A stretch of DNA of 64,000 bases from Paucibacter sp. TC2R-5 (lineage in GTDB: Bacteria > Pseudomonadota > Gammaproteobacteria > Burkholderiales > Burkholderiaceae_C). Shown one piece after another: positions 10,545 to 26,961 of this stretch (the first letter of the stretch is position 1; each line of letters opens with the position of its first letter). Under the pieces are notes generated by a model. The model did no database searches, was not told the DNA's origin, and saw nothing but the letters and a program-made list of their open reading frames with translations. The stretch spans positions 248,001 through 312,000 of the forward strand of contig NZ_JAJIRQ010000007.1 of NCBI RefSeq assembly GCF_025717605.1, written 5' to 3'. The position numbers and the translations under genes are program-made.

Positions 10545-12080
10545 CTAGGCCATAAAGCCGAGATCCCGCTTGCCTGCGTCGAAGTTCTTCAGGTTCGGAA
10601 AGATGTCGGCCAGATTGCCGTCGCTGACGCCCATCCAGCGACCCAGCGTCGCGCCGAGCTGTTCGACCGAAGTCTCCGGCAGCAGCGCACCATTGCCGAG
10701 TTGATTCGGGCTGCTCTCGAAGTCATTGTTCTTGGCGTTCTTAGCGCCGACGACTGGGAACTTGCCGTAGAACTCGCGCCCCTTGACCGCGCCGCCCATG
10801 ACGAAATGGTGGCTGCCCCAGCCATGGTCGGTGCCGTCGCCATTGCTGGTGAAGGTGCGGCCGAAGTCGCTGGCGGTGAAGGTGGTGACGTTGTTGCGCA
10901 AGCCCATCGCGCCCAGCGTGTTGTCAAAGTAGCTGAGCGCGTGTGAGAGCTTGGCCATCAAGTCGGCTTGGGCGCGATTCTGTCCATCATGCGTATCAAA
11001 GCCGCCCAGGCTGACGAAGAAAACTTGCCGGCCCGCACCCAAGGCACTGCGCGCGCCCATGGTGCGCGCCACCACCTGCAGCTGCTGGGCTAATGAGTTA
11101 GTTGACTTGGTGCCGGTCAGGGGATTGTCATATTGCAAGAGCGGATCGGCAGCGCCATTGGCCAGACCGGCCGTGCCATAGGGGGCACTATTGGCGGGCG
11201 GCAAGGCGCTGCCTATCAAGGCCTCGGCCACCAGCGAGCGATTGACCACGGTCGCATGATCACGTGCTATCAGGTCGTTGCTGCGGCCGCCGCGCATCAC
11301 GGTGCGCATGCGCTCCAGCGCTGCGGTGGAGCCAAACAGACTGGTGTCGCTGCCGCCAATGCGGATGGCACCTCGTGTGCTGATCTGGTACTGCAGCGCT
11401 TGCTTGCCGCTCAAGAACACCGCATTGCCGCCGGCCGAGACGGCACTGAAGAGGGGCTGGCTATTGCCCGCCATCAAGAGGTCGGCAAAGCGACCGCCCC
11501 AACCCACCGTCGCGCCTTCGGGCGTCAGTGACTGCCAAGTGGATTGCTGGTCATTGTGCGAATACAAGCCGGCTGGCCGCGCGAAAGTGACGATCTTCAA
11601 ATCTGCTTTGCTGGTGGGGCGCACCAGCGGGCCGATATTGGGCAGCACCGCCAACCGCCCTGCGGCAAACAAATCACGCACACCGCTCATGCTGGGATGC
11701 AGGGCAAAAGTGCGGCCTTGCGATGTGATGGGGTTGATCGCCAGCACGCCGCCGAGCCGTTCGGGCGAACCTGCGCCGGCACCCATTTGCGCCGGGGTGC
11801 CCGGCGCCAACAGCGCGATCGACTCGGGCGCTTGATTGCGCACCTGGCTGTAGGCGGCCCAGGATTCGGCATCGGTCGGCAAGACCATATTGAAGGCGTC
11901 ATTGCCGCCGAATAGAAAGACGCAAACCAGCGCCTTGTAGTCACCGGCGGTCTGCGCGCTGGCATTGCCAAAGGCAGCCAAATTCATCGCCATGGGCGCA
12001 GCGGCGCCCAGGCCGGCTAAACGAGCCGCTTGGGCCAGGAAGGCGCGGCGGGAGGCGGGGGAATTGAAGTTGGTTTTCAT
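10545..12080 (-). CDS. DUF1501 family, Tat-exported protein
   Basis: A 511-residue protein with a twin-arginine signal (SRRAFLAQAARLAGLG, residues 10-25; cleavage near residue 43 after NASA) and a DUF1501 domain with alkaline-phosphatase/sulfatase-like features: VFLFGGNDAFNM near the mature N terminus, FDTHDGQNRAQ and TDHGWGSHHFVMGG toward the C terminus, with conserved Asp/His probably binding metal. The family is found next to DUF1800 proteins in many environmental bacteria, as here, where the DUF1800 gene lies 63 bases upstream on the same strand. Function unknown; the pair is periplasmic by signals. Confidence 0.88.
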   Translation of the reverse strand: MKTNFNSPASRRAFLAQAARLAGLGAAAPMAMNLAAFGNASAQTAGDYKALVCVFLFGGNDAFNMVLPTDAESWAAYSQVRNQAPESIALLAPGTPAQMGAGAGSPERLGGVLAINPITSQGRTFALHPSMSGVRDLFAAGRLAVLPNIGPLVRPTSKADLKIVTFARPAGLYSHNDQQSTWQSLTPEGATVGWGGRFADLLMAGNSQPLFSAVSAGGNAVFLSGKQALQYQISTRGAIRIGGSDTSLFGSTAALERMRTVMRGGRSNDLIARDHATVVNRSLVAEALIGSALPPANSAPYGTAGLANGAADPLLQYDNPLTGTKSTNSLAQQLQVVARTMGARSALGAGRQVFFVSLGGFDTHDGQNRAQADLMAKLSHALSYFDNTLGAMGLRNNVTTFTASDFGRTFTSNGDGTDHGWGSHHFVMGGAVKGREFYGKFPVVGAKNAKNNDFESSPNQLGNGALLPETSVEQLGATLGRWMGVSDGNLADIFPNLKNFDAGKRDLGFMA

Positions 12081-12143
12081 AAGTGCCTTAGTCAGTTGGG
12101 GTCAGAGCATGGCGCTGCGCGCCAAGGTCTTACCCGCAAGTCA

Positions 12144-13949
12144 TTATTTTTGAACCAGGTACTCAGGCGACACCAGCGCCAGATAGACGCCCAATTTGGC
12201 GCGGTTCAACAACTGGTCATCGACGGTTTTTTTGTTGCTGGCGTCGGCCTTCAGCGCATCGAGCTTGACCGATTCGACCGCTGCCACCATCTCGGCCTTG
12301 AGCGCTGCATTGCTGCGGCCCCCAAGCAGTTGCTTGCTGACTTGCTCAACCAGTTCGCTAGGCTTGGCCGCCAGGGCAATCAAGGCAGTCAGATCGAATT
12401 GCACGTCATTGCGGGCGGCCTTCCAGTCCAGGCCGCGTTGCCCAAAGCCGCCGGCCACGCCGCCTTTGATGAAGTTGGCGTAACCCGCCACCGAGGTCTC
12501 CTGCACCAATTGCAACTCGGGCATGGTCAGCTTGGCGGCGCCGCTTTCACTGCCCGGCGCAATGAAACCGGGACGGTAAAAATTGAACACCGAGGGCGAG
12601 CGCAACGGTGATTGACCGAGCTGGGTGGCTGGGTCGTCGGTAGCGCCGATCAACCACGCACCGCTGTCACTGCTGGCGCCGAGTGCGCGCAGTGCCGCCG
12701 TTAGTCGTAACACCGGCTCTTGCAGCTTGCCGTAGCTTGGCTGCGCGGCCAAGCCGGCGTCACGGGCTTCGCTGTCCAGCAAGATCGCCTTGACCATCGC
12801 CTTCATATCGCCGGCGCCGAAGGCCTTGGACACCCGCGCCACATAGTCGGGGCTGGGGTTGCTGGTGACGAGGCGCTGAATCATCTGACGGCCGATGAAG
12901 GGGCCGACATTGGCGTGCAAGGCCAAGGCATCAAGGCCGGCCTTCAGGCTGGCCGCCGGGTCGGCCTTGACCTGCGCGGCCACGACCTTGCCCAGAAATT
13001 TCTTCTCGCTGAGCGAATGGAACTGGCTATAGCCCTGCATGGGTTTGAACGCGCGATCGGCCTCGCAATAGTCGGGGCACCAGCCCCAGAAGCGCCCGTC
13101 GGCGGTATCGGGGCCATCCCAACTCAGACCGGTGAAAACCTTGGCCATGCCGGCGATATCGTCCGCCGTGTAGCTGGGCTTGGGCGCACCGGCTTCGAGC
13201 TTGGGCGAGCCGTCGGCGTTCAGCTCGATCAGGCCGATCGAGAACAACTGCATCACCTCACGGGCGAAGTTTTCATCCGGTACCCGGCCGGTCTTGGCGT
13301 CTTCTTTCTGGTTCTTCAGATGCGATAGATACAAGCCCATGGCCGGGTGCGTGGCCACCTGCTCCAGCAGCACGCGGTAGTTGCCGAAGGCATTGGCGGA
13401 CAAGGTATCCAGATACGAAGCCACGGCGCGCGGCTGGTTGCCCACATTGTCTTGCGCCATCGACACCACCATGATTTGGGACAGCGCGTAAGCGACGCGC
13501 TGTCGCAATTGGTCATCGCCGGTGATGGCGACCTTGTAGAAGGAGTCCAGCACTTCGCGGCTGCCGGCCGAGTCGGTGGCTTTCAGCGCTTTCACGGCTG
13601 CATCGGACGCATCCCAATTCAGCCGGTGCATGCTGGCAGGCTTGGCGAGTTGCTCATCCAGCCAAGGCTCATAACCTTTATCCATGACGGCAGCGATGCT
13701 GGCCTCGGTCGGACCGAAGCTGGCCTGCATCAAAAAGCGCATCGCCTCCTCGCGGCTGCCTGGTTTGACGACCGTAGGCGCAGGGGTTGAGGGGCTGGCA
13801 GGGTTGGAACTTGGGCCGGCGGTGTCACCAGCCGCACCGCCCGAGCCGCCGCAGGCGCTCAAACCCGCCACCAAGGCCAACGCCGCCAGCCAAGCCAGAC
13901 TGCGGCCCGCCATCGCGGGCATTGCCAAACACAAAGGAAAATCGCGCAT
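12144..13949 (-). CDS. DUF1800 family lipoprotein
   Basis: A 601-residue protein with a type II signal peptide; the lipobox LSAC places lipidated Cys33 before a Gly/Ser/Pro linker (33-65). The DUF1800 domain follows (AMRFLMQASFGPTEASIAAV near its start; DENFAREVMQLFSIGLIELN and a C-terminal FNFYRPGF element). No catalytic activity is established for the family. It is the upstream partner of the Tat-exported DUF1501 protein, and the two are almost always adjacent in other genomes, suggesting a shared periplasmic or surface role. Confidence 0.88.
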   Translation of the reverse strand: MRDFPLCLAMPAMAGRSLAWLAALALVAGLSACGGSGGAAGDTAGPSSNPASPSTPAPTVVKPGSREEAMRFLMQASFGPTEASIAAVMDKGYEPWLDEQLAKPASMHRLNWDASDAAVKALKATDSAGSREVLDSFYKVAITGDDQLRQRVAYALSQIMVVSMAQDNVGNQPRAVASYLDTLSANAFGNYRVLLEQVATHPAMGLYLSHLKNQKEDAKTGRVPDENFAREVMQLFSIGLIELNADGSPKLEAGAPKPSYTADDIAGMAKVFTGLSWDGPDTADGRFWGWCPDYCEADRAFKPMQGYSQFHSLSEKKFLGKVVAAQVKADPAASLKAGLDALALHANVGPFIGRQMIQRLVTSNPSPDYVARVSKAFGAGDMKAMVKAILLDSEARDAGLAAQPSYGKLQEPVLRLTAALRALGASSDSGAWLIGATDDPATQLGQSPLRSPSVFNFYRPGFIAPGSESGAAKLTMPELQLVQETSVAGYANFIKGGVAGGFGQRGLDWKAARNDVQFDLTALIALAAKPSELVEQVSKQLLGGRSNAALKAEMVAAVESVKLDALKADASNKKTVDDQLLNRAKLGVYLALVSPEYLVQK

Positions 13950-14130: not shown

Positions 14131-14598
14131 CTAGCCGCCTACCGGCAAGGCCGTGCGGCTGACCACCTGCTGCAGCACAAAGCTCGAGTGCACGCCGGTG
14201 ACGCCTTGAATGCGCGTGAGCTTGCCGAGCAGCAGGCTCTGGAAATGATCCATATCGCGCACCACCAGCTTGAGCTGATAGTCGGCCGCCTGACCGGTGA
14301 TCAGCAAGCATTCCAACACCTCGGGCAAGACCTGCACCGCGGCTTCGAAGTTGGCGAAGCGCTCCGGCGTGTGCAGGTCCATTGAGATATGCACCAGGGC
14401 CATCAGGCTCAGGCCCAATTTTTTAGCATCGAGTTGCGCCCGGTAGCCGGTGATCAAGCCGCTGTCTTCCAAGGCGCGCACACGGCGCAAGCAGGGCGAG
14501 GGCGACAGGCCGACACGCTCGGCCAACTCCTGGTTATTGATGCGGCCGTCTTGCTGCAAGAGCTCAAGAATCTGGCGATCAATACGGTCTAATTCCAT
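14131..14598 (-). CDS. Lrp/AsnC family transcriptional regulator
   Basis: A 155-residue regulator with an N-terminal helix-turn-helix (DRIDRQILELLQQDG, then LAERVGLSPSPCLRRVRALE) over residues 1-60 and a C-terminal AsnC/RAM ligand-binding domain (~70-150; the TGxxDYQL-like GQAADYQLKLVVRDMD is present). Such proteins sense amino acids as octamers and bend DNA. No amino-acid gene is adjacent, so the target is unclear; AT-rich repeated sites immediately upstream suggest at least autoregulation. Function by family only. Confidence 0.93.
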   Translation of the reverse strand: MELDRIDRQILELLQQDGRINNQELAERVGLSPSPCLRRVRALEDSGLITGYRAQLDAKKLGLSLMALVHISMDLHTPERFANFEAAVQVLPEVLECLLITGQAADYQLKLVVRDMDHFQSLLLGKLTRIQGVTGVHSSFVLQQVVSRTALPVGG

Positions 14599-14773: not shown

Positions 14774-14804
14774 AAGCCCCAGGCACCACAAGTGCCTGGG
14801 GCTT
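14774..14804 (-). terminator. Hairpin terminator after the MscS-type gene
   Basis: AAGCCCCAGGCAC (14774-14786) is perfectly complementary to GTGCCTGGGGCTT (14792-14804), giving a 13-base stem with a 5-base loop, 11 bases downstream of the channel gene's stop codon on the minus strand. The following minus-strand sequence is only weakly T-rich (TTTGCTGATT), so termination may be incomplete or the hairpin may stabilise the transcript end. It is the only such structure at the end of the halogenase operon. Confidence 0.7.
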
Positions 14805-14815
14805 CGGCTTTAGGG

Positions 14816-17347
14816 CTAAGCGGCGGCATCGGGCAGCACGCCTTTCAGGCTGTCCGCCTTGTGTATATGCAACTCGCGCTGCGGCAGCGGGACGACGATA
14901 TTGGCCTCGGCAAAGGCGTCGCGGATGCGCATGGCAAAGGCGCTGCGCACCGCCACCCAGTCGGCCTGTTGGGTGGTCCAGGCACGCACATTGAAGGTCA
15001 GGGCGCCCGGCGTCAGCCCGGTCAGCAAGGCCGAAGGCGGCGGGAAGGAGGCGACGCCGTCCAGGTCTTGCGCAATGCCGATCAGCATCGCAATCGTCTG
15101 CTGCGGGCTGACCTCATAGCCGGTGCTGACGTCGATATTGATGCGCCGGCTGTTGCCGGTCAGCGTCCAGTTGACCAGCTTGTCCGCCAGAATCATGCCG
15201 TTGGGTAAAACGACATCGGCGCCTTCGAATGTCGTCAAGGTGGTGGCGCGCAAACCGATATCGCGCACCGTGGCCGTCAGGCCAGCCACGTCCACCACAT
15301 CGCCGGGCCGGATCGGCCGTTCGAACATCAAAATCAAGCCGGCGACAAAGTTGCGCACCACATCTTGCAGGCCCAAGCCGATACCGATGCCGAGCGCGCC
15401 GAACACAATCGCCAGCTCACCAACCTTGAAGCCGGCGGCCGCCAGCGCAGTCAACAAACCAAAGATCAGCACGCAGTAGTAGCTGATCGTCGAGACACTC
15501 TGCCCCACGCCAAGCGGCAGTTTGAGCGCCGGCAGCACATCCTCGGCCAGCAGCGTGCGCAGCGTACGCGCCACCCAGAACGAGGCCCAGGTGGCGACCA
15601 CAAAGGCCACCACACTGCCCAGGCTGAGCGTCAATCCGCCCAGTGCCACCTGAAATGTCAGCGCCGCCATCAGCATGTCGTACAAAGGCCGGTAGATGCG
15701 GAAGTCCTGCAAGGCATAAACCACCCAGCCCAGCAGCAAGAGGATGCGCCCCAAGCGCACGACCACAGGCACCAAGGTACCCGCATGACGCTTGCTCAGC
15801 TGTGCCAGCTTGGGCCGAGCCAACAAGACTTGCAACAAAGCCACCAGCACCGATGCACCGGCGTACAAGGCCAGCGCCGCATAACTGCTGTCCAGCACGG
15901 CGCCGGTCAACATGGTGGTCAAGGAGATATTGCCCAGCACATTGGACAGGGCGGAGGCCAAGAGCACGGCACAAGCCAAGAGCAAGAGCCCGGCCGGCAG
16001 CCATTTGGGGACCTGATTGGCCGGCTGCACGGCGCTCGCCCCGGAATTGAGCGGGCCTTCGTCCGCCGGCTCGCCTTGCGCCACGGCGGGCTCGCGCAGC
16101 GCCCGCCAACCCAAGATCCCCAGCGTCAAGAGCATCAACAGATTCAGGGCCAGCAAACCGAAGCGGTAGACCAGCAAGCTGCCGACAAACAGCGAGGCCA
16201 CGACATTGAAGAAATAGAACACCGCGCTCAGATAAGCCCAGGGGCCTACGGCCGGCGGGATGCGCCGCTGCAACAACACCAGCACCGGCACCCAAGCCAG
16301 CAGCATCACCATCTGCTGCCGCATGATGGGGCCATGCAGGTCGTAGACCATCGCGCCCAAGGCCACCAAGACCAGCCAAGCCGCCAAAGGCCGAGACAGG
16401 ATCTGCATGGACAGCTCCGAGGCCTGCCCGTCCCTGACCATCTGCCGGGCGCGGCGCTTGAGCCAAAACATCATGGGCAGCAGCGCCAGCGCCGACAAGA
16501 CCAGGACCGGCAGCAGCTTGGCGCTGCTGGCATCGTGATCGCGGGCGAAGCCGCGCTCGATCTCCAGGCTGCTGCGCAGGCCGACACTGACCGGCTCGGC
16601 CACCTCGTCGGAGGCGGCCGCCTGCCACAGAGGCGGCGCATCGATCACCAGCAAGCGGCGGTCGAGATCCTCGATACGGGTCTGCACCGCATTGACCATA
16701 TTGTGGACATGGGTCGCCAAGGCACTGGCGGTGCGGCCTCGCTCCAAGAGCTTGGCCAAGGGGCCGGCCAGATCGACCTCGCCCTGCTGTGCCAACGCGA
16801 TCAATTCGTCCACGCGCTGCACCAAGGCAGGCGCCGAGTCGGCCGCGCTGACCCGGGTGGCTTGCCAGACATTGCGCCGCGCGGCCAGATCGGCTGCGTC
16901 TTCGGAGCGGCTTTGCAGAACGCGAGCGAGCTCGGCCCGGCTGCGGGCAATCTCCCGCTCATGTAACTGCCAATGTCGGTGCAAGCTCTCGAGCCGGCGC
17001 ACCGACAGCAAGGCCAGCGCGCTGCTGCTGGATTTGTCGGTCAGCTGCTTGATGGACTCGGCCCGCTCGGCCAGCGACTGCTCCAGCCGGCGCCCCGCAT
17101 CGGCGCTGTTGGCGCGCCGCACCACGGTGACGATCAGCTGCTCATCGGCATCGGCGCGGGCCGGAATATCCGCCGGCGCAATCACCTCGTGGCGGCTCTC
17201 GGCGGCGGCCGCAGTACCGGCGGGCGGCGCCTGGGCAAAGCCGGGCGAGATGGCGCCCAATGCCAGCAGCAAACTCAGGCCCAGCAGCCAGCCGTAAGGC
17301 CCCGACCGCTTGAACCAAGCCCTCCTAGATTCGATCTTCTTGATCAT
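14816..17347 (-). CDS. Large MscS-family mechanosensitive channel
   Basis: An 843-residue membrane protein. It has a signal peptide (cleavage near GFAQA), a periplasmic alpha-helical region to about residue 250, then about ten hydrophobic segments and a C-terminal MscS domain: pore helix and beta domain include GIGIGLGLQDVVRNFVAG, IRPGDVVDV and VVLPNGMILADKLVNWT. Length and layout resemble the MscK/YbdG-like larger members that release solutes on hypo-osmotic shock. The start MIKKIES at 17347 is preferred to one 25 codons upstream because it begins a proper signal peptide and avoids overlapping the halogenase gene. It begins 43 bases after that gene, so it is probably the last gene of the receptor-halogenase operon. 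Confidence 0.9.
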   Translation of the reverse strand: MIKKIESRRAWFKRSGPYGWLLGLSLLLALGAISPGFAQAPPAGTAAAAESRHEVIAPADIPARADADEQLIVTVVRRANSADAGRRLEQSLAERAESIKQLTDKSSSSALALLSVRRLESLHRHWQLHEREIARSRAELARVLQSRSEDAADLAARRNVWQATRVSAADSAPALVQRVDELIALAQQGEVDLAGPLAKLLERGRTASALATHVHNMVNAVQTRIEDLDRRLLVIDAPPLWQAAASDEVAEPVSVGLRSSLEIERGFARDHDASSAKLLPVLVLSALALLPMMFWLKRRARQMVRDGQASELSMQILSRPLAAWLVLVALGAMVYDLHGPIMRQQMVMLLAWVPVLVLLQRRIPPAVGPWAYLSAVFYFFNVVASLFVGSLLVYRFGLLALNLLMLLTLGILGWRALREPAVAQGEPADEGPLNSGASAVQPANQVPKWLPAGLLLLACAVLLASALSNVLGNISLTTMLTGAVLDSSYAALALYAGASVLVALLQVLLARPKLAQLSKRHAGTLVPVVVRLGRILLLLGWVVYALQDFRIYRPLYDMLMAALTFQVALGGLTLSLGSVVAFVVATWASFWVARTLRTLLAEDVLPALKLPLGVGQSVSTISYYCVLIFGLLTALAAAGFKVGELAIVFGALGIGIGLGLQDVVRNFVAGLILMFERPIRPGDVVDVAGLTATVRDIGLRATTLTTFEGADVVLPNGMILADKLVNWTLTGNSRRINIDVSTGYEVSPQQTIAMLIGIAQDLDGVASFPPPSALLTGLTPGALTFNVRAWTTQQADWVAVRSAFAMRIRDAFAEANIVVPLPQRELHIHKADSLKGVLPDAAA

Positions 17348-17390
17348 GCAACATCCATTGGCGCCACCCCGGCGCAGCTGCATTGTGCCG

Positions 17391-18878
17391 TCAGCCGGCC
17401 ACCCTGCAATAGGACTCGACATAGGCCTGATGGGCCGGCAGCTGCACGACGGTTTGATCGACCTGCTGGCGAATGCTATTCAGGAAACGCGCCAACTCGG
17501 CGTCGCCCATCAGATCAGCCACTTGGTGATGCTGTTGCGGCAAGATACCCTGTCCCAACATCACCTGTATCCAGGAGTTCTCGGCGAATAGCTCGTTAGG
17601 CACACGGAATACTCTTGCGGTCTCGCGGAACAAATCAATCCGGTGACGCAGCGAGGCGGGGATGTCCATCTCGCGGCAGTGGCGCCAAAAGGCGCTGTCC
17701 TGGCGCTGGGTGACGTGATAGTGCAAGACGATGAAGTCGCGAATATGCTCAATCTCGTTGCGGCTTTGCTGGTTGTATTCAGCAATGTCCGCAGGGCAGA
17801 TGCCCTTAGCCGGAAACATCTGCAACAGGCGCGTGATGCCGCGCTGAATCAGGTGGATGCTGGTGGACTCCAGAGGCTCTAAAAAGCCACTGGACAAGCC
17901 GATGGCGACGCAGTTGGCGCGCCAGGTTTGATGGCGCTGACCGGGCTGAAAGCGCAGCACGCGCGGCTGCGTCAAAGCCTCGCCCTCCACGTTTGCCAGC
18001 AGCGCCTGCTTTGCCTGCTCATCGTCAATGTGTTTGCTGGCATAGACCATGCCGTTGCCCACTCGGTGCTGCAGCGGAATGCGCCACTGCCAACCGGCGG
18101 CATGTGCGATCGAGCGTGTGTAGGGCAAAGCCGGGCCGGTCGACGCGGTCTGCAGCGCCACCGCGCTGTCGCAGGCCAGCCAATGCGACCAGTCTTCATA
18201 GCCGACCTTCAGCGCCTCGCCGATCAAGAGACCGCGAAAGCCGGTGCAGTCGATGAACAAATCGCCCTCGATCAGCGCGCCGGAATCCAGCCGCAGCCCG
18301 GCGATGTTCTCGCCCGCCAGCGCCACTTCGGTGATCTTGCCCTCGATGCGCTGCACGCCAAAACCCTCGCTGAACTTGCGCAGATACTTGGCGTACAGCG
18401 TCGCGTCCAGATGGAAGGCGTAGTTCATGCCGGCGCGCGGCAAATGCGCGAACTTGCTTTGCTGCGCCGCCTTCAGCTCCAGACAATAGTCGCCATACTC
18501 GCCGGCCAATCCGCGCTCGCGGCCTTTGAGCCAGAAATGCTGAAAGCCAGCCGTCCAATGGTCTTTGCCGGTCAAGCCAAAGGAGTGGATGTAGTCCTGC
18601 CCCCGGTCGCGCCAGTTTTCAAAGCTGATGCCGAGCTTGAAGGTCGCCTGGGTGGCGGCCATGAATTCCTGCTCATTGATCTCCAGCAGGCTGTGAAAGG
18701 TCAGCAAGGTCGGAATCGTCGCCTCGCCGACACCGACGGTGCCGATCTCATCGGACTCGATCAGCTTGATGTCGAGCAACTTCCCCAAGGTCTTGGACAA
18801 GGCGGCCGCCACCATCCAGCCGGCCGTGCCGCCGCCGGCGATGACGATGCGTTTGATCGGTTTGCGTTCGCTGCTCAT
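17391..18878 (-). CDS. Flavin-dependent tryptophan-halogenase family protein (first copy)
   Basis: A 495-residue FAD-dependent enzyme of the tryptophan-halogenase family, which uses reduced flavin, oxygen and halide to halogenate an aromatic substrate. The FAD site is GGGTAGW (15-21); catalytic Lys81 lies in ATFKLG (PrnA Lys79 position); the diagnostic WxWxIP is intact as WQWRIP (263-268); EPLES with Glu337 matches the active-site Glu/Ser. It starts four bases inside the end of sapC. Halogenases of this type beside SapC and TonB-dependent receptors occur in Xanthomonas, Caulobacter and Brevundimonas, where the natural substrate is mostly unknown. Halogenation is likely chemically possible, but free tryptophan need not be the substrate; no flavin reductase gene is nearby. 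Confidence 0.9.
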   Translation of the reverse strand: MSSERKPIKRIVIAGGGTAGWMVAAALSKTLGKLLDIKLIESDEIGTVGVGEATIPTLLTFHSLLEINEQEFMAATQATFKLGISFENWRDRGQDYIHSFGLTGKDHWTAGFQHFWLKGRERGLAGEYGDYCLELKAAQQSKFAHLPRAGMNYAFHLDATLYAKYLRKFSEGFGVQRIEGKITEVALAGENIAGLRLDSGALIEGDLFIDCTGFRGLLIGEALKVGYEDWSHWLACDSAVALQTASTGPALPYTRSIAHAAGWQWRIPLQHRVGNGMVYASKHIDDEQAKQALLANVEGEALTQPRVLRFQPGQRHQTWRANCVAIGLSSGFLEPLESTSIHLIQRGITRLLQMFPAKGICPADIAEYNQQSRNEIEHIRDFIVLHYHVTQRQDSAFWRHCREMDIPASLRHRIDLFRETARVFRVPNELFAENSWIQVMLGQGILPQQHHQVADLMGDAELARFLNSIRQQVDQTVVQLPAHQAYVESYCRVAG

Positions 18879-19570
18879 ACTTGGTTCTGCCGGTCAATCA
18901 ATGTGCGCAGCTGCGACAGCGACGCCACCGCCATATAGATCGCCTGCAGATGGCCGGCGCGCGCCAAAGCCTCCAGCGCGCTGCCGGGCAAACCGGCCAG
19001 ACGCTCCTCGTTGATTGTGTAAAAGCCGGCCAGACGATTTTGTGAGCCGTCGTTCAGCTCGACATCCAGCACAAAGGATTCCAGCAGCTCATGCGCCTGC
19101 AGCGCCTGGATGAAGGCGGGCGTGGCGTCCAAGCCTTGATGCAGGGCCAGCAAGACCGAGTTGATGCGCTGCAGGTAGTCACTGCTGCCACCATGCGGCA
19201 AGAACAGCGCCTCGCCTTCGCTGCGGCTCAGGCGCGGGCTGTCCAGATCGATATGCACCAGCAATTCCTGGCCCGAGCGGCCAATCAAAAAGGGCTGGCG
19301 CTCTAGCGAGAGCGGCAAATAGGCCGCATCCCAGCGTCCGTCGCGCAAGAACAAGTTCTGGCCGGCTTGCAGCCCCAGCAAGGCAATCGGCTCGAAGCCT
19401 GTGCCCTCGGCCGTCTTGCGAAACACGATCGGGTAATGCGCCTGGATGCTGCGAAACTCATCCGGGAAGGTCAGCGCGAACATCTGCCCATCGCCTAACT
19501 CGGCAGCACGACGGTTGATGACGCGAAGGTCTTGGTGGTCGACGTTATTCAGTAAAACAGAATTGGCCAT
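18875..19570 (-). CDS. SapC family protein
   Basis: A 231-residue protein of the SapC family (named after a Campylobacter S-layer-associated protein; biochemical role unknown). It begins MANSVLLNNVDHQDLRVINR and contains FPDEFRSIQAHYPIVFRK, both typical of the family's N-terminal half, followed by PFLIGRSGQELLVHIDLDSPRL. No signal peptide or membrane segment is visible, so it appears cytoplasmic. It lies between two halogenase genes: 24 bases after the one upstream and overlapping the next by four. Its constant association with halogenase and receptor genes suggests a shared pathway. Confidence 0.9.
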   Translation of the reverse strand: MANSVLLNNVDHQDLRVINRRAAELGDGQMFALTFPDEFRSIQAHYPIVFRKTAEGTGFEPIALLGLQAGQNLFLRDGRWDAAYLPLSLERQPFLIGRSGQELLVHIDLDSPRLSRSEGEALFLPHGGSSDYLQRINSVLLALHQGLDATPAFIQALQAHELLESFVLDVELNDGSQNRLAGFYTINEERLAGLPGSALEALARAGHLQAIYMAVASLSQLRTLIDRQNQV

Positions 19571-19594
19571 GAGGATTGACTCGGGAAGAGGGGT

Positions 19595-21139
19595 TCAGAT
19601 GCTGTGCAAGCCATGCTGCTGGATATGGGCTATCAGCGCCCGGTTGCTGGGTAGAGCCCCCAGCATCCGGCGCGTCAATTGGGCGGTTTCGGAAAAGAAG
19701 CCGGCGGCCTTTTGCGCATTGGCCGCATCTTCGCTGCGCCGCGCGCCAGCGCTTGGCAAGGGCCGAAAGCCCATGCCGTAGAGCACGTATTGATAACTGG
19801 CCGAGGGGAACATTTCCTCGATGCGGTGGAAGTCGTGCCGCGAGGGCGGGCGGTGCTGCCATTGCGCCAGCAGCTCTTGCAGCCGCGGCGGCGTGCTCGC
19901 GGCCTGTTCGCGCCAATAAGCGCTGTCGCGGCGCTGGCTCAAGACGTAATGCAGTTTCAGAAAATCGATCACCCGCTCCCAGCGGTAAGTAAAGGCATCG
20001 TTGAAGCGCTGGGCGGCAATGTCCATCAGCGCCCGGTTGGCCGGCATTTCTTCACTCACCAAGGTGGCCGACAACTCAACCAGCGCCAGCGCAGAAGCCT
20101 CCAGCGGCTCGATAAAGCCGGCCGAGAGGCCAATGGCGACACAGTTCTTGTGCCAAAACTTGGCCCGGTAGCCGGGCTTGAAGCTCAGCTTGCGGGCGGC
20201 CAGGTGCTCGGCAGCTCCGCCGGTCTTGGTCACATACGCGCGCAGCTCGATTTCAGCCGCCTCGTCCGAGCAGTGCGCGCTCGAATAGACATAGCCAATG
20301 CCGCGCCGCGTCTGCAGGCCGATGTCCCAGATCCAGCCGCAGCTTTGCGCCGTCGAAATGGTCTGCGAGGCAATCGGGCTGTCCACCTGCGCGTAGGGCA
20401 CTTGCAAGGCCAGCGCGCTGTCATTGAACAAGACATCTTGCTGCGACAGCAAGGGCACACCGAAGTGCTGGCCGAGCAGCAGCGAAGCCATGCCGCTGCA
20501 GTCAATGAACAAATCAGCGCTCAGCGCTCCATGCACCTGGGTCTGCAGCGAGGCGATATCGCCATTGGCGTGTGAGTTGACGCCCACCATGTGGTCTTGC
20601 ACATGTTTGACGCCAAGCTTTTCCAGGCAATGTCGGCGCAGAAGGTGACCGAATTTGACCGCGTCGAAGTGATAGCCGTAATTGGCCACTGCCGCGAACT
20701 CCGGCGTGGCCGCCTGCTTGGGCGCCAGACCGGCCGCGCAAAGATGGGGCTGAAAGCTCATCAGTTCCGCAAACGGGACATTCGCGTGCTGCTGCAGCCA
20801 GGCCGCCACCAGATTCGCTTCGGTATAGCCTTGCGGCAGTACAAAGGGATGAGCGTACTGGTCGTCGGCACGGCCATTAACCCAGCCGACGAATTTGGAG
20901 CCTTGCTTGAACGTAGCCTCGCACTCGCGCACCAAGTCGGTCTCGCTGATGCCGATTTTGTGCAACGTGTCGCGCATGGTCGGCCAAGTGCCCTCGCCGA
21001 CACCGATGGCCGGCACATCGGGCGACTCCAGCAGCGTTACCTGCAGGCCCACCCCATGTTCGGCCGCGATCAAGGCGGCGCTCAGCCAACCGGCCGAGCC
21101 CCCGCCCAAAATCACGATCTGTTTGATCACCTCGGTCAT
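19595..21139 (-). CDS. Flavin-dependent halogenase family protein (second copy, divergent motifs)
   Basis: A 514-residue paralogue of the neighbouring halogenase with low identity. The FAD motif GGGSAGW (12-18) and catalytic Lys78 (ATFKQG) are kept. The WxWxIP signature reads WIWDIG (269-274), so the proline is lost, and the active-site stretch is EPLEAS (Glu347, Ala348) where the first copy and PrnA have EPLEST. These changes suggest altered substrate or a flavoprotein no longer acting as a standard halogenase. The gene starts nine bases after the receptor gene ends and is followed by sapC after 24 bases, firmly in the operon. Confidence 0.88.
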   Translation of the reverse strand: MTEVIKQIVILGGGSAGWLSAALIAAEHGVGLQVTLLESPDVPAIGVGEGTWPTMRDTLHKIGISETDLVRECEATFKQGSKFVGWVNGRADDQYAHPFVLPQGYTEANLVAAWLQQHANVPFAELMSFQPHLCAAGLAPKQAATPEFAAVANYGYHFDAVKFGHLLRRHCLEKLGVKHVQDHMVGVNSHANGDIASLQTQVHGALSADLFIDCSGMASLLLGQHFGVPLLSQQDVLFNDSALALQVPYAQVDSPIASQTISTAQSCGWIWDIGLQTRRGIGYVYSSAHCSDEAAEIELRAYVTKTGGAAEHLAARKLSFKPGYRAKFWHKNCVAIGLSAGFIEPLEASALALVELSATLVSEEMPANRALMDIAAQRFNDAFTYRWERVIDFLKLHYVLSQRRDSAYWREQAASTPPRLQELLAQWQHRPPSRHDFHRIEEMFPSASYQYVLYGMGFRPLPSAGARRSEDAANAQKAAGFFSETAQLTRRMLGALPSNRALIAHIQQHGLHSI

Positions 21140-21148
21140 CTCGCCCTG

Positions 21149-24100
21149 TCAAAAGGTGTAGCGCGCTCCGAACATATATCGTGGGCCTGTCTGTGTGGCG
21201 TACAGCAGCTGATCCTTGTTGCGGCCGTGCAAACGCTGTACGCCGTCATTGAGGTTGATCACCTCGGCCTGCAGGCTCAGTTTCTCGGTCAGCTTGTAGC
21301 CAATATTGACGTCGACCTGACCATAGGCATCGGTATAGACCGGGTTGGGCAAGCCGGTGCCGTCGAAACGCGAGGTCAGGAATTCATCCCGCCAGTTATA
21401 GGCCACACGCACCGACCATTTGTCGTTCTCGTAGAAACCGACCAAGTTGGCCGAGTCGCTCAAGCCCTCCAAGGCAAACTGCTCGCCGCGGTTCTTGTTG
21501 TCGTACTTGAGCCCCGAGGTGACATAGGTGTAGTTGGCCGAGACGCCGAAGCCACTCTTGCCGAACATATGCTGGACGTTGAACTCCAGGCCGTTGAGGC
21601 TGTCCTTGCGCTGATTGGCCGGCGTGGTGATGGCGAAGGTGGCGATCGGGTCGCTGGCCTGGCCGGGGATCACGCCGGTCTGATTGCCATTGGCATCATC
21701 CTTGCCTCGCACCACCCCGCCCTGGCCGTTCTTGTTCAGGAAGATGTAGTTGCGGATGCAGGTGATGTCGGACGTGACGCAGCCCTTGGCGATCGCCTCC
21801 TTGAAGAAGGCGCCGCCGGCCGGCGTGCGCAGATTGAAAGGCGTGCCCTGGGTCGTCGTCGTGCCGATGAAGTTCTCGATGTTCTTCTTGAAATAGCCCA
21901 ACGACAAGAAGCTGGCCTTGCCGTAGTACCACTCGCCGGACAAATCGAAGTTCTTGGACTTCAAGGGCTTCAACGCCGGGTTGCCCTGCGCGCCGGTGCC
22001 GCCGTCGATACGGGCCAGCTGGTTCAGCGTCTGCCCGCCCTGGATATCACCCCAGCCGGGGCGGCCGATTGTTTCGCTGTAGCTGGCGCGTGCCTTGACG
22101 TCGCGGGTCACGTCCACGTCCACGTCCACGCTGGGCAGGAAGTATTTATAGCTGCCTTCCAGCGTGGTGTAGCCAGGAGCACCAAACTGCACCGAGAACT
22201 CGTTATTGGCCACCCAATTGATGCCGGTGGCGGTGGGCACCAGAGCGGTGGCCGTCACATCGGTTTTCTCGTAACGCACACCGAAAGCGGCATTGACCGG
22301 CATGCCTAACTCCCAGCTGGTGCTGTACTGCAAAAAGCCGCTCTGGGTCTTTTCTTGCACCTTGCGGTCGGTCGTGAACTGGTTAGAGGCACGGTAGAGC
22401 GAATCGTCGCCGGCGGCCTTGGCGGCCAGGGCGCGCACCGTCTCGAAGTCGAAGGTGAAGAACTGGTTGAACAGCGCCGGGCTGTCATGGCCGCTCATTT
22501 GCTTGAAATAGGGGCTGATGGTGTCAGCGCGCCAGACATTGTCCGGATAGTCGGCGGCATTGGTGGCGCCACCCCAGGTGTCGCGCTGCACATTGGAGAA
22601 GGCCGAGCGGTTGTCGACCTTGTTCAGGCTCATGCCGAAGTCCAGACGAGATTCGTCCGAGAGCTTGTAATTGCCGGTCAACTGCCCTTGGTCGATGGAC
22701 GACTTCATATAGCTGTTGCGGAACGATGAGCCCGTCACCATCATCTTGGATGCGTCGATATTGCCGCCGGCCACGCTCAGGACCGGGAACTTCTGGGTGA
22801 AGTCCACGGCCGTGGTGCCACGCGTGAAGCTGGCGGTGCCCAGGCTGGAGTTGGAGCCGTAAGGGCTGTCGGCACCGGATGTCGCCGTCGAATGGTGGGC
22901 ATCAAATTCCAAGGTGAGCTTGTTGCTCGCCTTCCAGGCCAAGTTGAAGCCGGTGGAGTTGTTCTCGTTCTTGGTCGCGTATTGCGCGCCGCCCATGGAC
23001 AAGTCGCTGGTGGCCGGAACGATAGTTTCCGAATAGATCTTGGGGCTGCTGACCGGGCCGCTGTTCCAGCTGCTGGACGAGGGGCCGAAGTTGAACCAGA
23101 CCGACAACTCGTTGCGCTTGGTCTGGATCTTGTTCTGGGAGTAGGTGTAGTCCAGCGTGGCGGTCAGGTCATTGATGGGCTTGTATTGCAGCGTCACCTG
23201 CCCGTTCGTGCGTTGGCGCTGAATGCCGTTGACCGAATAGGCAAAGTTCTGCGGCACCGAATAGATATCGGTGGGGCCAGGGCGATTGATGATGTTCTCG
23301 GAGCCTGGCGTGCCGGGCTGGGGGATGGTGCCCCAGTTGTTCTCATCGCCGGCAAAGGGCCGCCAGCCATTGGCCACCGCCGCCTGGTTGTAACCCAGAT
23401 TGCGTTCCTGATAGCTGCCGCTGATGGCGATGCCGAACTTGCCATCGGCGAAGGTGTTGCTGTAGATGCCCGAGACTTCAGGCGTGACTTCGCTGCCTTG
23501 CAGCGGGTCGGGCAGGCGGCCGTTGGAGGTGTCATGCACGCCCTTGACGCCGAGGCTGGCGCGCAGGCCGGGGTTGTCCAGCGGCCGGGCGGTCTTGATA
23601 TTGATGGTGGCGCCGATGCCACCGGCCGGCGACGCGGCACGGCTGGTCTTGAAGACCTCGATGCCGGCGATCGACTCCGAGGCCAGGTTGGCGAAGTCAA
23701 AGGCCCGCGAGTTCGAGGCCGAGGTGTCGGCGATGCTGGAGGCGGGCATTTGCCGGCCGTTCAAGAGCACCAAGTTGAAGTCGGGGCCGACGCCGCGCAC
23801 GGTGACCTTGGAGCCTTCGCCGATCGAGCGGTCGATCGACACGCCACTGATGCGCTGCAAGGACTCGGCCAGATTGGTGTCGGGGAACTTGCCGATGTCT
23901 TCGGCCACGATGCCGTCGACCACGCCTTGCGCATTGCGCTTGAGGTTCATCGAGGAGCCCAGACTGCCGCGAATGCCGGTAACGACGACCGCCTCCAGCA
24001 CATTCGCGGCTGCCGGCTGTTCACTCGCTGGCGGCGTTGCTTGTTGTGCATGGGCGCCGCCCATGCCGGCCACGCAAAGCCCGCAGGCCAGGGCCAGCTT

Positions 24101-24160
24101 GCTCATTTGAAACACAGGGCCGACAGCTTGGCTGGCCCGCTGGACTGGGGTGTTGATCAT
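21149..24160 (-). CDS. TonB-dependent receptor, large Xanthomonas/Caulobacter type
   Basis: A 1003-residue outer-membrane transporter. The start at 24160 is chosen because GGAGAC stands five bases before it and a signal peptide follows (cleavage near GGAHA). The mature N terminus carries a TonB-box-like EAVVVTGIRGSL, then the plug (DIGKFPDTNLAESLQRISGVSIDR; VTVRGVGPDFNLVLLNGRQM) and a 22-strand-type barrel ending in YMFGARYTF with the terminal aromatic. This subfamily typically imports carbohydrates and stands beside SapC/halogenase genes. A LacI-type palindrome lies 103 bases upstream. Together with adjacent glucokinase and GH30, a glucoside or beta-glucan fragment is the likely cargo. Confidence 0.93.
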   Translation of the reverse strand: MINTPVQRASQAVGPVFQMSKLALACGLCVAGMGGAHAQQATPPASEQPAAANVLEAVVVTGIRGSLGSSMNLKRNAQGVVDGIVAEDIGKFPDTNLAESLQRISGVSIDRSIGEGSKVTVRGVGPDFNLVLLNGRQMPASSIADTSASNSRAFDFANLASESIAGIEVFKTSRAASPAGGIGATINIKTARPLDNPGLRASLGVKGVHDTSNGRLPDPLQGSEVTPEVSGIYSNTFADGKFGIAISGSYQERNLGYNQAAVANGWRPFAGDENNWGTIPQPGTPGSENIINRPGPTDIYSVPQNFAYSVNGIQRQRTNGQVTLQYKPINDLTATLDYTYSQNKIQTKRNELSVWFNFGPSSSSWNSGPVSSPKIYSETIVPATSDLSMGGAQYATKNENNSTGFNLAWKASNKLTLEFDAHHSTATSGADSPYGSNSSLGTASFTRGTTAVDFTQKFPVLSVAGGNIDASKMMVTGSSFRNSYMKSSIDQGQLTGNYKLSDESRLDFGMSLNKVDNRSAFSNVQRDTWGGATNAADYPDNVWRADTISPYFKQMSGHDSPALFNQFFTFDFETVRALAAKAAGDDSLYRASNQFTTDRKVQEKTQSGFLQYSTSWELGMPVNAAFGVRYEKTDVTATALVPTATGINWVANNEFSVQFGAPGYTTLEGSYKYFLPSVDVDVDVTRDVKARASYSETIGRPGWGDIQGGQTLNQLARIDGGTGAQGNPALKPLKSKNFDLSGEWYYGKASFLSLGYFKKNIENFIGTTTTQGTPFNLRTPAGGAFFKEAIAKGCVTSDITCIRNYIFLNKNGQGGVVRGKDDANGNQTGVIPGQASDPIATFAITTPANQRKDSLNGLEFNVQHMFGKSGFGVSANYTYVTSGLKYDNKNRGEQFALEGLSDSANLVGFYENDKWSVRVAYNWRDEFLTSRFDGTGLPNPVYTDAYGQVDVNIGYKLTEKLSLQAEVINLNDGVQRLHGRNKDQLLYATQTGPRYMFGARYTF

Positions 24161-24262: not shown

Positions 24263-24276
24263 TGAAAGCGCTTTCA
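24263..24276. promoter_or_regulatory. LacI-type operator upstream of the receptor operon
   Basis: TGAAAGCGCTTTCA is a perfect 14-base palindrome with the central CG typical of LacI-family operators. It lies in the 198-base gap between glk and the receptor gene, 103 bases upstream of the receptor start. An identical copy lies at 25440-25453. No LacI-type gene is present in the window. Confidence 0.8.
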
Positions 24277-24358: not shown

Positions 24359-25375
24359 TCAGCCGAGCGCTGCCGCATCCAAGGCGCGCGAGGCGCCGAT
24401 CAAGGCAGGCGACACCGCCGCGTCGATGACAAAGGTAGGCACGGCCGCGAGGTAGTTGGCGAAGCGCCCTTTGGCCTCAAAGCGCTCTCGAAAGCGTGAG
24501 GCCGCCAGTTCCGGCAATAAGCGCGGCACGACGCCGCCGCCGACATAGACGCCGCCACGGGCACCGTAGGTCAGCGCCAGATTGCCGGCAAAGCTGCCCA
24601 GGAAACGAAAAAACAAATCCAGCGCAGCCAAGCAATCCGGATCGCGCTGCTCGCGTGCGGCGGCAATCAGCGCTTGGGGGCTGGTCAGGGGCGCCGGCCG
24701 GCCGGCCAATTGCGCCGCGGCCTGATAGAGATTGAGCAGGCCAGGCCCGGACAAAGCCCGCTCCGCCGAAGCGTGACCGAAGCGCTGGCGCAAGCAGTTG
24801 ACGACGGCCGCCTCTTGCTCATCGATAGCCGCCAGGCTGGCGTGACCGCCCTCGCCGCTGATCGGCGCGTAACTTCCATTGCCGCCCTGGCTGGCAATGC
24901 CAGCAACTCCAACAGGCAAAAGCCCCGCCACACCGAGGCCGGTGCCTGCGCCCAAGACCGCCAAGGCCTCGCCCGCCACCGCGCTACCGCCGCCAATTTG
25001 GCGCAATTGCTCGGGCCGCAGTGCCGGCAAGGAAAGCGCCAGCGCGGTGAAGTCGTTCAGCACCGCCAGGCGCTGCACGCCCAAGCTCTGCTTGAGCTGG
25101 GCAATCGAGAAGGACCAATGGTGATTGGTCATGCGCACCGTGTCGCCGACGATGGGGTTGGCGATGCCGATCGCGCAGGCACGCGGGCGCGGCTTGCCCT
25201 GCTCCGCCAGGTATCTGGCGATCGCCTCTTGCAGCGAGGCCTGCTCCGCGCACTTGTAACTGACGATGTCTGCGACCGCGCCGTCAGCATCCTCGCCCCA
25301 GGCGAAGCGGGCATGAGTGCCGCCCACATCGCCAAGCAGACGCGGATACAAAGACGCGGAGGCATTCAGGCTCAT
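24359..25375 (-). CDS. glk: Glucokinase
   Basis: Cytoplasmic ATP-dependent phosphorylation of glucose to glucose-6-phosphate. The 338-residue protein belongs to the bacterial Glk family: LLGDVGGTHARFAW (phosphate 1 motif, residues 13-26), NHHWSFS, VLNDFTALALSLP (catalytic Asp in NDF), LGAGTGLGVAGL, and the SGEGGHASLA motif. Length is normal for the family (about 320-340). It is divergent from GH30 with the palindromic operator between them, and lies upstream of the receptor operon on the same strand, so it is probably induced with glucoside uptake to phosphorylate the released glucose. Confidence 0.95.
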   Translation of the reverse strand: MSLNASASLYPRLLGDVGGTHARFAWGEDADGAVADIVSYKCAEQASLQEAIARYLAEQGKPRPRACAIGIANPIVGDTVRMTNHHWSFSIAQLKQSLGVQRLAVLNDFTALALSLPALRPEQLRQIGGGSAVAGEALAVLGAGTGLGVAGLLPVGVAGIASQGGNGSYAPISGEGGHASLAAIDEQEAAVVNCLRQRFGHASAERALSGPGLLNLYQAAAQLAGRPAPLTSPQALIAAAREQRDPDCLAALDLFFRFLGSFAGNLALTYGARGGVYVGGGVVPRLLPELAASRFRERFEAKGRFANYLAAVPTFVIDAAVSPALIGASRALDAAALG

Positions 25376-25406: not shown

Positions 25407-25453
25407 TTGACGGCAGCCGCCGCAATGCCACAATCGTAATGAAAGCGCTTTCA
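25407..25453 (+). promoter_or_regulatory. GH30 promoter with second LacI-type operator
   Basis: The perfect palindrome TGAAAGCGCTTTCA at 25440-25453 is identical to the one before the receptor operon. A weak sigma70-like promoter can be read just upstream for the plus strand: TTGACG at 25407-25412 and CACAAT at 25429-25434, 16 bases apart, which would put the palindrome over the transcription start, the usual position for a repressor. It also lies 65 bases upstream of glk and could control both genes. Confidence 0.65.
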
Positions 25454-25548
25454 TGAAGCAAGCACTGGTTTTCCCTGGTGTGCAAAAACAGCGCCCACAT
25501 GTCCCGACACCTGTTCACCTTTCCCCTAACCTCAGAACATCCAGCGCC

Positions 25549-26961
25549 ATGCCCGCACTCAAACCCGGCCTTTCAAACTCCTTGCCAGAACCCTTGCAGC
25601 TACGCTGCGTGCTGAGCACGGCCGACGGCCAACGCCGGCTCGCCGAACAAGCGCCGCTGTTGCTGCAAGGCCCAGCCGGCGCCAATTCGGCGCACAGCGA
25701 CTTGCCCAGCGTGATGGTCCACAGCGGGCGGCGCTTTCAAACCCTGCTGGGCTTTGGCGGCGCCTTCACCGAAGCCGCGGCCGTCACCTGGAGCGCGCTG
25801 CCCGAACCCGAGCGCGCCGCGCTACTGCGCCAATACTTTGATGCCGACAGCGGTCACGGCTACACGCTGTGCCGGCTGCATATGAACAGCTGCGACTTCG
25901 CGCTGGGCAACTACGCCCATGCGGCGGTGGCCGGTGATGTGCTGCTGGAGCATTTCAATATCGAGCGCGATCGCAAGGCGCTGCTGCCCATGATCAAGGC
26001 GGCACAGGCGCTTGCGCAGCAGGCGGGGTCGGCATCTATCCGTTTGCTGGCCTCGCCCTGGAGCCCAGCGCCCTGGATGAAGAGCAACGGGCAGATGAAC
26101 CAGGGCGGCGAGTTGCTGCCCGAATATGCCGCCGTCTGGGCTCAATGTTATGTTCGCTTCATCCAGGCCTATGCGGCCGAGGGGGTGCCGATCTGGGGTC
26201 TGACGGTACAGAACGAACCGGCCGCCACGCAACGCTGGGATTCCTGCATCTACAGCGCCGAGCAAGAGCGCGATTTTGTACGCGACCATCTCGGGCCCGC
26301 CTTGGCCGCGGCCGGCCTGGGCCACATCAAGATCATCGTCTGGGACCATAACCGCGACCTGATGGTGGAGCGCGCGGCAGCCGTCTACAGCGACCCCGAG
26401 GCGGCCCAATATGTGTGGGGCTGCGGCTTCCACTGGTATGGCGAAGACCATTTCGAGCATGTTCAGCTGCTGCACGACGCCTGGCCTGACAAGGCGCTGC
26501 TTTTCACCGAAGGCTGCCAGGAAGGCGGGCCACACCTCGGCTCCGCCGCTCTGGGGGAACGTTATGCCCGCAACATCATCAAGGACCTGAACCGCTGGAC
26601 GGTCGGCTGGATCGACTGGAACCTGCTGCTGGATGAAACCGGCGGCCCGAACCATGTCGGCAATTTGTGCAGCGCGCCCATCATGGCCAATCGGCAGACC
26701 GGCGAGTTGATGCCGCAAAGCTCCTATGACTATCTCGGCCATTTCGCCCGCTTCATCAAGCCGGGCGCGCAGCGGCTGCTGTGCGCGGCCAGCAAGCAAG
26801 ACCTGGAGGTCACGGCCTTCATCAACCCTGACGGCAGCAAGGTACTGGTCGCACTTAACCGCAGCGAGGCCGATATTCACTACACGCTCAAATTGGACGC
26901 CAGGCAATGCCAGGCACTGGCGCAGGCGCGCTCGATCAGCAGCTTTGTACTTGCGGCTTGA
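25549..26961 (+). CDS. Glycoside hydrolase family 30 (glucosylceramidase-like)
   Basis: A 470-residue retaining beta-glycosidase of family GH30. The (beta/alpha)8 domain begins FQTLLGFGGAFTEAAA and has acid/base Glu223 in VQNEP and nucleophile Glu321 in LFTEGC; SPWSPAPWMKSN and a small C-terminal beta domain (FALNRSE-like VALNRSEADIHYTL) complete the fold. GH30 members cleave beta-1,6- or beta-1,3-glucosidic or glucosylceramide bonds. The start at 25549 is preferred to ATG 25453, which overlaps the operator and adds an ordinary 32-residue extension. Neither start gives a signal peptide, so the enzyme is probably cytoplasmic and acts on an imported glycoside, feeding glucose to the divergent glk. 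Confidence 0.9.
   Translation: MPALKPGLSNSLPEPLQLRCVLSTADGQRRLAEQAPLLLQGPAGANSAHSDLPSVMVHSGRRFQTLLGFGGAFTEAAAVTWSALPEPERAALLRQYFDADSGHGYTLCRLHMNSCDFALGNYAHAAVAGDVLLEHFNIERDRKALLPMIKAAQALAQQAGSASIRLLASPWSPAPWMKSNGQMNQGGELLPEYAAVWAQCYVRFIQAYAAEGVPIWGLTVQNEPAATQRWDSCIYSAEQERDFVRDHLGPALAAAGLGHIKIIVWDHNRDLMVERAAAVYSDPEAAQYVWGCGFHWYGEDHFEHVQLLHDAWPDKALLFTEGCQEGGPHLGSAALGERYARNIIKDLNRWTVGWIDWNLLLDETGGPNHVGNLCSAPIMANRQTGELMPQSSYDYLGHFARFIKPGAQRLLCAASKQDLEVTAFINPDGSKVLVALNRSEADIHYTLKLDARQCQALAQARSISSFVLAA

Follow-up and report, generated by a model that had tools for sequence, protein, structure and literature searches.

A conserved receptor, halogenase and SapC cassette of Paucibacter sp. TC2R-5 lacks Cupin_8 and appears to belong to a beta-glucan regulon

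In a 64,000-nucleotide stretch of Paucibacter sp. TC2R-5 (contig NZ_JAJIRQ010000007.1, positions 248,001 to 312,000; hereafter the window), a TonB-dependent receptor (TBDR), two flavin-dependent halogenase homologues (HalA and HalB) and a SapC protein are encoded one after the other, with an MscS-type channel gene behind them. The receptor, halogenases and SapC form a real, conserved and widespread cassette, and the oddity of the window is a gene missing from it, Cupin_8, and not a gene added. Taken together, a rare palindrome shared with neighbouring genes and the presence of glucan genes nearby place the operon in a putative regulon for beta-glucans and beta-glucosides, whose genes this genome keeps at separate sites. 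We consider it probable that the genes constitute a LacI-controlled cassette for beta-glucan uptake.

We searched 84,980 species genomes with HalB and found at least 589 stretches encoding a relative. The best 80 loci, which represent the nearer forms of the cassette, were analysed, with gene order assigned by phmmer; their sources include Burkholderiales, Lysobacteraceae, Steroidobacter and Alteromonadaceae. Cupin_8 stood ahead of HalB in 79 of the 80, and SapC, the receptor and HalA were found in 77, 74 and 60, respectively. The commonest order was TBDR-HalA-SapC-Cupin_8-HalB, present in pure form in 53 loci, and the window keeps its succession of receptor, SapC and HalB. Four of the six loci without a receptor end at a contig edge (L012, L016, L023, L041). 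The original prediction, made from the letters of the window, had called the association of TonB receptor, halogenase and SapC recurrent, which these counts bear out; it had also singled out a pair of halogenases with a channel as the last gene as the unusual part, and the pair proved to be the usual state. Within the genus (18 genomes), 59 of 80 Trp_halogenase matches at E <= 1e-30 had a TIGR01782 receptor no more than 6 kb away, a raw count in which a few matches are fragments. Conversely, 50 of 115 TIGR01782 receptors lay within 6 kb of a halogenase, the 115 being the matches listed above cut-off, less two rows of one split match. A literature search, based on partial sources and with most subscription papers outside its scope, returned no description of the association and is weak evidence of novelty.

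Smaller variants were also seen. In four loci from genus-mates (L183, L184, L185, L187), a receptor is directly followed by a single halogenase, apparently a minimal two-gene form. At L157:10906-11610, a DUF6445 gene adjoins a HalA-like gene that stands alone and a receptor of opposite orientation. We also scanned the flanks of the 80 loci, taking one neighbour on each side, chosen by codon composition (75 upstream and 78 downstream). DUF6445 was the first gene past HalB in 2 of 78 loci, and a TonB C-terminal domain protein was the first in 9 of 78, which suggests a dedicated TonB in some cassettes.

Open reading frame (ORF) and family searches gave the minus-strand order TBDR, HalA, SapC, HalB and MscS-type channel; the first two junctions are gaps of 9 and 24 bases, the third is a 4-base overlap. 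This confirmed the five-gene spacing originally described, with the proviso that the final gap, 43 bases between HalB and the channel, holds only if the channel begins at the ATG at 17347; the longest channel frame, from 17422, overlaps HalB by 32 bases. For the receptor, the second ATG, at 24160 and following GGAGAC, is the most likely start and is preferred over 24199. The evidence supports TBDR-HalA-SapC-HalB as one operon-like block; of the single operon first proposed, this part stands and the channel's membership is not supported. A promoter scan returned no promoter-like site between HalB and the channel, which tells little because it returned none ahead of the receptor either. The hairpin said to close the group is strong (fold z -5.6); its terminator-like character is less secure, as it has no clear T-run and is not among the terminator-scan results.

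Features of the window in and around the receptor/halogenase block
Feature	Position	Strand	Remarks
TBDR, TonB-Xanth-Caul type	21149..24160	-	TIGR01782, 664 bits; ORF extendable to 24199
HalA, flavin-dependent halogenase-like	19595..21139	-	Pfam Trp_halogenase, 403 bits
SapC (PF07277)	18875..19570	-	241 bits
HalB, flavin-dependent halogenase (predicted)	17391..18878	-	Pfam Trp_halogenase, 649 bits
SapC/HalB 4-base overlap	18875..18878	-	position of Cupin_8 (~335 aa) in 79/80 relatives
MscS-type channel	14816..17347	-	ORF extendable to 17422; neighbour outside the cassette
Hairpin past channel	14774..14804 (about)	-	terminator function uncertain
Block edge	17391..17398		homology with G007 (L154) picks up at 17398
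Glucokinase (glk)	24359..25375	-	probably same regulon
GH30 glycoside hydrolase	25453..26961	+	best NCBIfam match endo-1,6-beta-glucanase, 240 bits, under the cut-off of 700
Palindrome TGAAAGCGCTTTCA, copy 1	24263..24276		LacI-type; ~100 bases ahead of receptor start 24160
Palindrome TGAAAGCGCTTTCA, copy 2	25440..25453		between divergent glk and GH30

The window cassette contains no Cupin_8 gene. Among the 80 loci, only L008 (Paucibacter sp. B2R-40), the closest relative of the window, also lacks it, and SapC and HalB overlap by 4 bases in both. In the HalB tree, the window and L008 are sister to the Cupin_8-bearing L014 (support 93/83, not starred), and a quick tree of HalA gave the same grouping (91). 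Because of this shared overlap and the sister position of L014, Cupin_8 was probably lost from this copy in the window lineage, and an assembly gap is the less likely cause of its absence. The only Cupin_8 gene in the genome sits in a second cluster on the same contig (L155; G000:C43:15001-34999), which is a complete TBDR-HalA-SapC-Cupin_8-HalB set neighboured by GH1, glucokinase, MFS and GH5 genes and a LacI gene of its own, and which carries a different palindrome, GACAACGYTGTC, at three sites. The Cupin_8 protein of this cluster may serve the window cassette in trans. The missing Cupin_8 and the palindrome TGAAAGCGCTTTCA, described below, had both been overlooked in the original prediction.

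We considered whether all five genes form a functional unit, in which the channel would release or balance an imported or modified compound. The channel lies on the same strand 43 bases past HalB in both the window and L008. Of the 80 loci, however, L008 is the only one in which a channel follows HalB, with at least 1.4 kb of sequence past HalB in 79 of them (498 bases in L067); L079 has a weak 25-bit channel match 2.4 kb off. Three of the 18 genus genomes hold an orthologue of the channel (G000, G009 and G007, of which G009 is apparently the same genome as L008), and the other 15 have distant homologues only. G007 has the channel followed by Lrp, DUF1800 and DUF1501 genes, just as in the window, without the receptor/halogenase block. 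The opposite flank matches as well, and two unrelated genes replace the part of the window that runs from an esterase (27740) to HalB; homology returns at window position 17398, still inside the final codons of HalB, and continues through the channel, Lrp, DUF1800 and DUF1501. In the window, the DUF1501 and DUF1800 pair occupies 10545-13949 and adjoins a small Lrp-like gene at 14131-14598 (named by eye). A family scan found channel homologues at E <= 1e-50 in 8 of 399 genomes, six of them outside the genus; at the five of these six that were inspected, no adjacent receptor or HalB match was found, with the contig of one (L160) ending just before the channel. Because G007 keeps the order of channel, Lrp, DUF1800 and DUF1501 without the block, the channel looks like a chance neighbour and not a part of the cassette, and a functional unit of five genes is highly improbable. 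Co-occurrence in related genomes, to which the original prediction had appealed, thus speaks strongly for receptor, halogenase and SapC and counts against the channel as a functional last gene.

The palindrome TGAAAGCGCTTTCA occurs in two perfect copies in the window, where 0.34 sites are expected at up to 2 mismatches. The whole genome (5.1 Mb) holds four copies, and none of the reversed control sequence. The two window copies lie at the TBDR operon and at glk/GH30, and this shared rare sequence upholds the tie to the neighbouring glk and GH30 that had been proposed. The third copy is ahead of a binding-protein gene (assigned by similarity) with GH16 downstream, and the fourth (C12:672717) is between a LacI gene and an operon of binding protein, GH1 and ABC-ATPase genes, with permeases recognised by eye. 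This LacI gene spans C12:672821-673882, and in six of ten loci inspected a relative of it neighbours both palindrome and receptor. In the 80 loci, 22 of the 74 receptor starts have an exact TGAAAGCGCTTTCA close by, compared with 11 of 1369 windows drawn at random from those loci. Counted by hand, a further 13 receptor starts have TGGAAACGTTTCCA, 7 have TGACAACGCTGTCA and 3 have TGACAGCGCTGTCA, the control covering exact TGAAAGCGCTTTCA only. The 18 genus genomes hold 52 copies of TGAAAGCGCTTTCA altogether, and by a reading of lists it lies just upstream of 11 of 15 module-type receptors. In G004, G008, G013 and G014, the genome's single copy sits at the promoter of this receptor; there, LacI, binding-protein, GH1 and GH16 genes adjoin the receptor, glk comes directly after HalB, and HalA is absent. 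The first upstream neighbour across the flank scan was LacI in 12, GH16 in 11 and GH3 in 4 of 75 loci, and in L009 a GH1 gene immediately precedes HalA. It is because of the shared rare palindrome and these glucan-gene neighbours that we place the window operon in a beta-glucan regulon.

This arrangement resembles the CUT loci of xanthomonads, which, in the available part of their description, combine a TBDR, a LacI-family repressor, an inner-membrane sugar transporter and carbohydrate enzymes (PMC1790865). The window likewise has a TBDR linked to carbohydrate enzymes, with glk and GH30 next door, and a putative operator for a sugar-type repressor, in the form of the palindromes and the LacI gene beside the C12:672717 copy. 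Unlike CUT loci, it has two halogenases and SapC in the operon of the receptor, and this genome has the regulon divided between two loci; halogenase, SapC and cupin do not appear in the main text of the CUT paper. There is a likeness also to BglR-type regulons, in which LacI regulators stand over beta-glucoside genes, as far as the accessible portion of that report goes (PMC4052901); its main text mentions neither halogenase, SapC nor TonB.

HalB has as its nearest solved chain Xcc4156 (6y1w, 762 bits), followed by 9luq (562 bits) and BrvH (6frl, 478 bits). Like Xcc4156 and BrvH, it keeps GxGxxG, the catalytic lysine (Lys81) and WxWxIP (reading WQWRIP), and its halogenase activity is predicted on these grounds. 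For HalA, the nearest solved chain is 2pyx (558 bits), which we take to be a halogenase-like structure from Shewanella frigidimarina and for which we know of no function. HalA keeps GxGxxG and the catalytic Lys78 and reads WIWDIG at the third motif; the HalA class has WxWxIG in place of WxWxIP, the final residue being G in 58 of 60 aligned rows, with GxGxxG in 59 of 60. Since HalA, SapC and HalB have no signal peptide that we could see by eye, all three proteins should be cytoplasmic. The structure model of SapC is confident (pLDDT 94.9), and Foldseek and a further look found no solved relative of it in the PDB; SapC is possibly an unrecognised fold. In the sections of PMC5945002 at hand, BrvH is described as having a second halogenase gene adjoining it, as HalB does. 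TonB and SapC were absent from the main text of the published halogenase papers searched.

From gene content, conservation and the palindromes we infer the following course. The receptor would carry beta-glucan oligosaccharides across the outer membrane; GH30, GH16 and GH1 enzymes would cleave them, and an ABC or MFS importer with glucokinase would complete the path. In the presence of the sugar, the LacI repressor would leave TGAAAGCGCTTTCA, so that receptor, HalA, SapC and HalB are produced together. HalA and HalB, as putative cytoplasmic halogenases (or hydroxylases) dependent on flavin adenine dinucleotide, would then act with SapC, and normally with the Cupin_8 protein, to oxidise an aromatic group. 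As the target, a peptide or protein is somewhat favoured over a small molecule, because glucan breakdown has no aromatic step and the HalB class has an open active site. A peptide substrate has been suggested for Xcc4156, an indole brominase with an open active site whose native substrate is not known, according to the part of that study available (PMC7336383). We put forward this full account, a glucan cassette with halogenases acting on an aromatic group and a leaning toward a peptide or protein, as a tentative one, at somewhat less than an even chance.

Within the same glucan regulon, the halogenases might instead act on a small aromatic, either the aglycone of a plant aryl-beta-glucoside or free indole, in detoxification or signalling. 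This is possible, if rather doubtful. The catalytic lysine is kept throughout (60 of 60 HalA and 83 of 83 HalB rows), the GH1 genes of the regulon would also suit aryl-glucosides, and glutathione S-transferase, encoded immediately upstream in 7 of 75 loci, fits small-molecule chemistry. The nearest studied relatives, moreover, brominate indole or its derivatives, as stated in the accessible parts of their reports (BrvH, PMC5945002; Xcc4156, PMC7336383); the authors of the BrvH study nevertheless doubt, in the section seen (PMC5945002 section 23), that indole is its native substrate, because the activity is low. Transferases aside, no aromatic-catabolism family appeared among the first neighbours (best 25 of 64 and of 101 families). 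Of the aromatic or glycosylated import first envisaged, a glycan is the probable cargo, and the aromatic alternative is disfavoured by neighbours and a regulon made up mainly of beta-glucan genes, the transferases notwithstanding.

Tryptophan halogenases are best known from secondary-metabolite and siderophore clusters, and with a TonB-type receptor present, the genes could be read as a biosynthetic cluster whose halogenated product, a secondary metabolite or siderophore, is taken up again by the cell. We regard this as very unlikely. The module is ringed by glucan enzymes, glucokinase and LacI-type palindromes, and no biosynthetic genes were among the first neighbours (best 25 of 64 and of 101 families), where no dedicated search for them was made.

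Several observations weigh against a LacI-controlled glucan cassette, or against parts of it, in addition to the recurrent transferase. In shuffled sequence, 3 of 100 windows reach two sites at up to 2 mismatches, which makes the window count modest when taken alone. G001 and G003 hold no copy of TGAAAGCGCTTTCA. G012, G015, G016 and G017, which have no module-type receptor in the set, carry 4 to 7 copies, and therefore TGAAAGCGCTTTCA also serves other genes. An adjacent receptor is absent from L009, where a GH1 beta-glucosidase gene (319-1698) takes its place ahead of HalA, and from L042, where another gene precedes Cupin_8. Only one of the 20 loci without HalA (L012) is cut by a contig end, and the other 19 are long enough to show it. 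At L304, one of six module-type receptor matches outside the genus, the enzymes are not nearby; the same genome has a full cluster, L302. Finally, the receptors did not yield the link to the halogenases that an initial alignment had promised. There, Trp368, 422 and 542 did not vary among 75 module-type receptors, and all four of the two-gene receptor/halogenase units had them too; in 17 receptors with no such link they were seldom seen (1 or 2). When 108 genus receptors were realigned, the trio was not common to other halogenase-linked receptors and the four units kept only Trp 422. We therefore rejected these tryptophans as a signature of halogenase linkage.

One further proposal concerns what the enzymes might modify. 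The cassette could be a sugar-induced protein-modification system, in which the halogenases, the oxygenase-like Cupin_8 protein and SapC alter a protein expressed along with them, which might be the receptor during its synthesis; we think this unlikely. If it were true, oxidation or halogenation of residues would tune nutrient uptake. Gene order and a rare shared palindrome now place halogenases of the Xcc4156/BrvH class in putative beta-glucan uptake regulons, and this placement points to a growth condition, and to products, with which the native halogenase substrate may be found.

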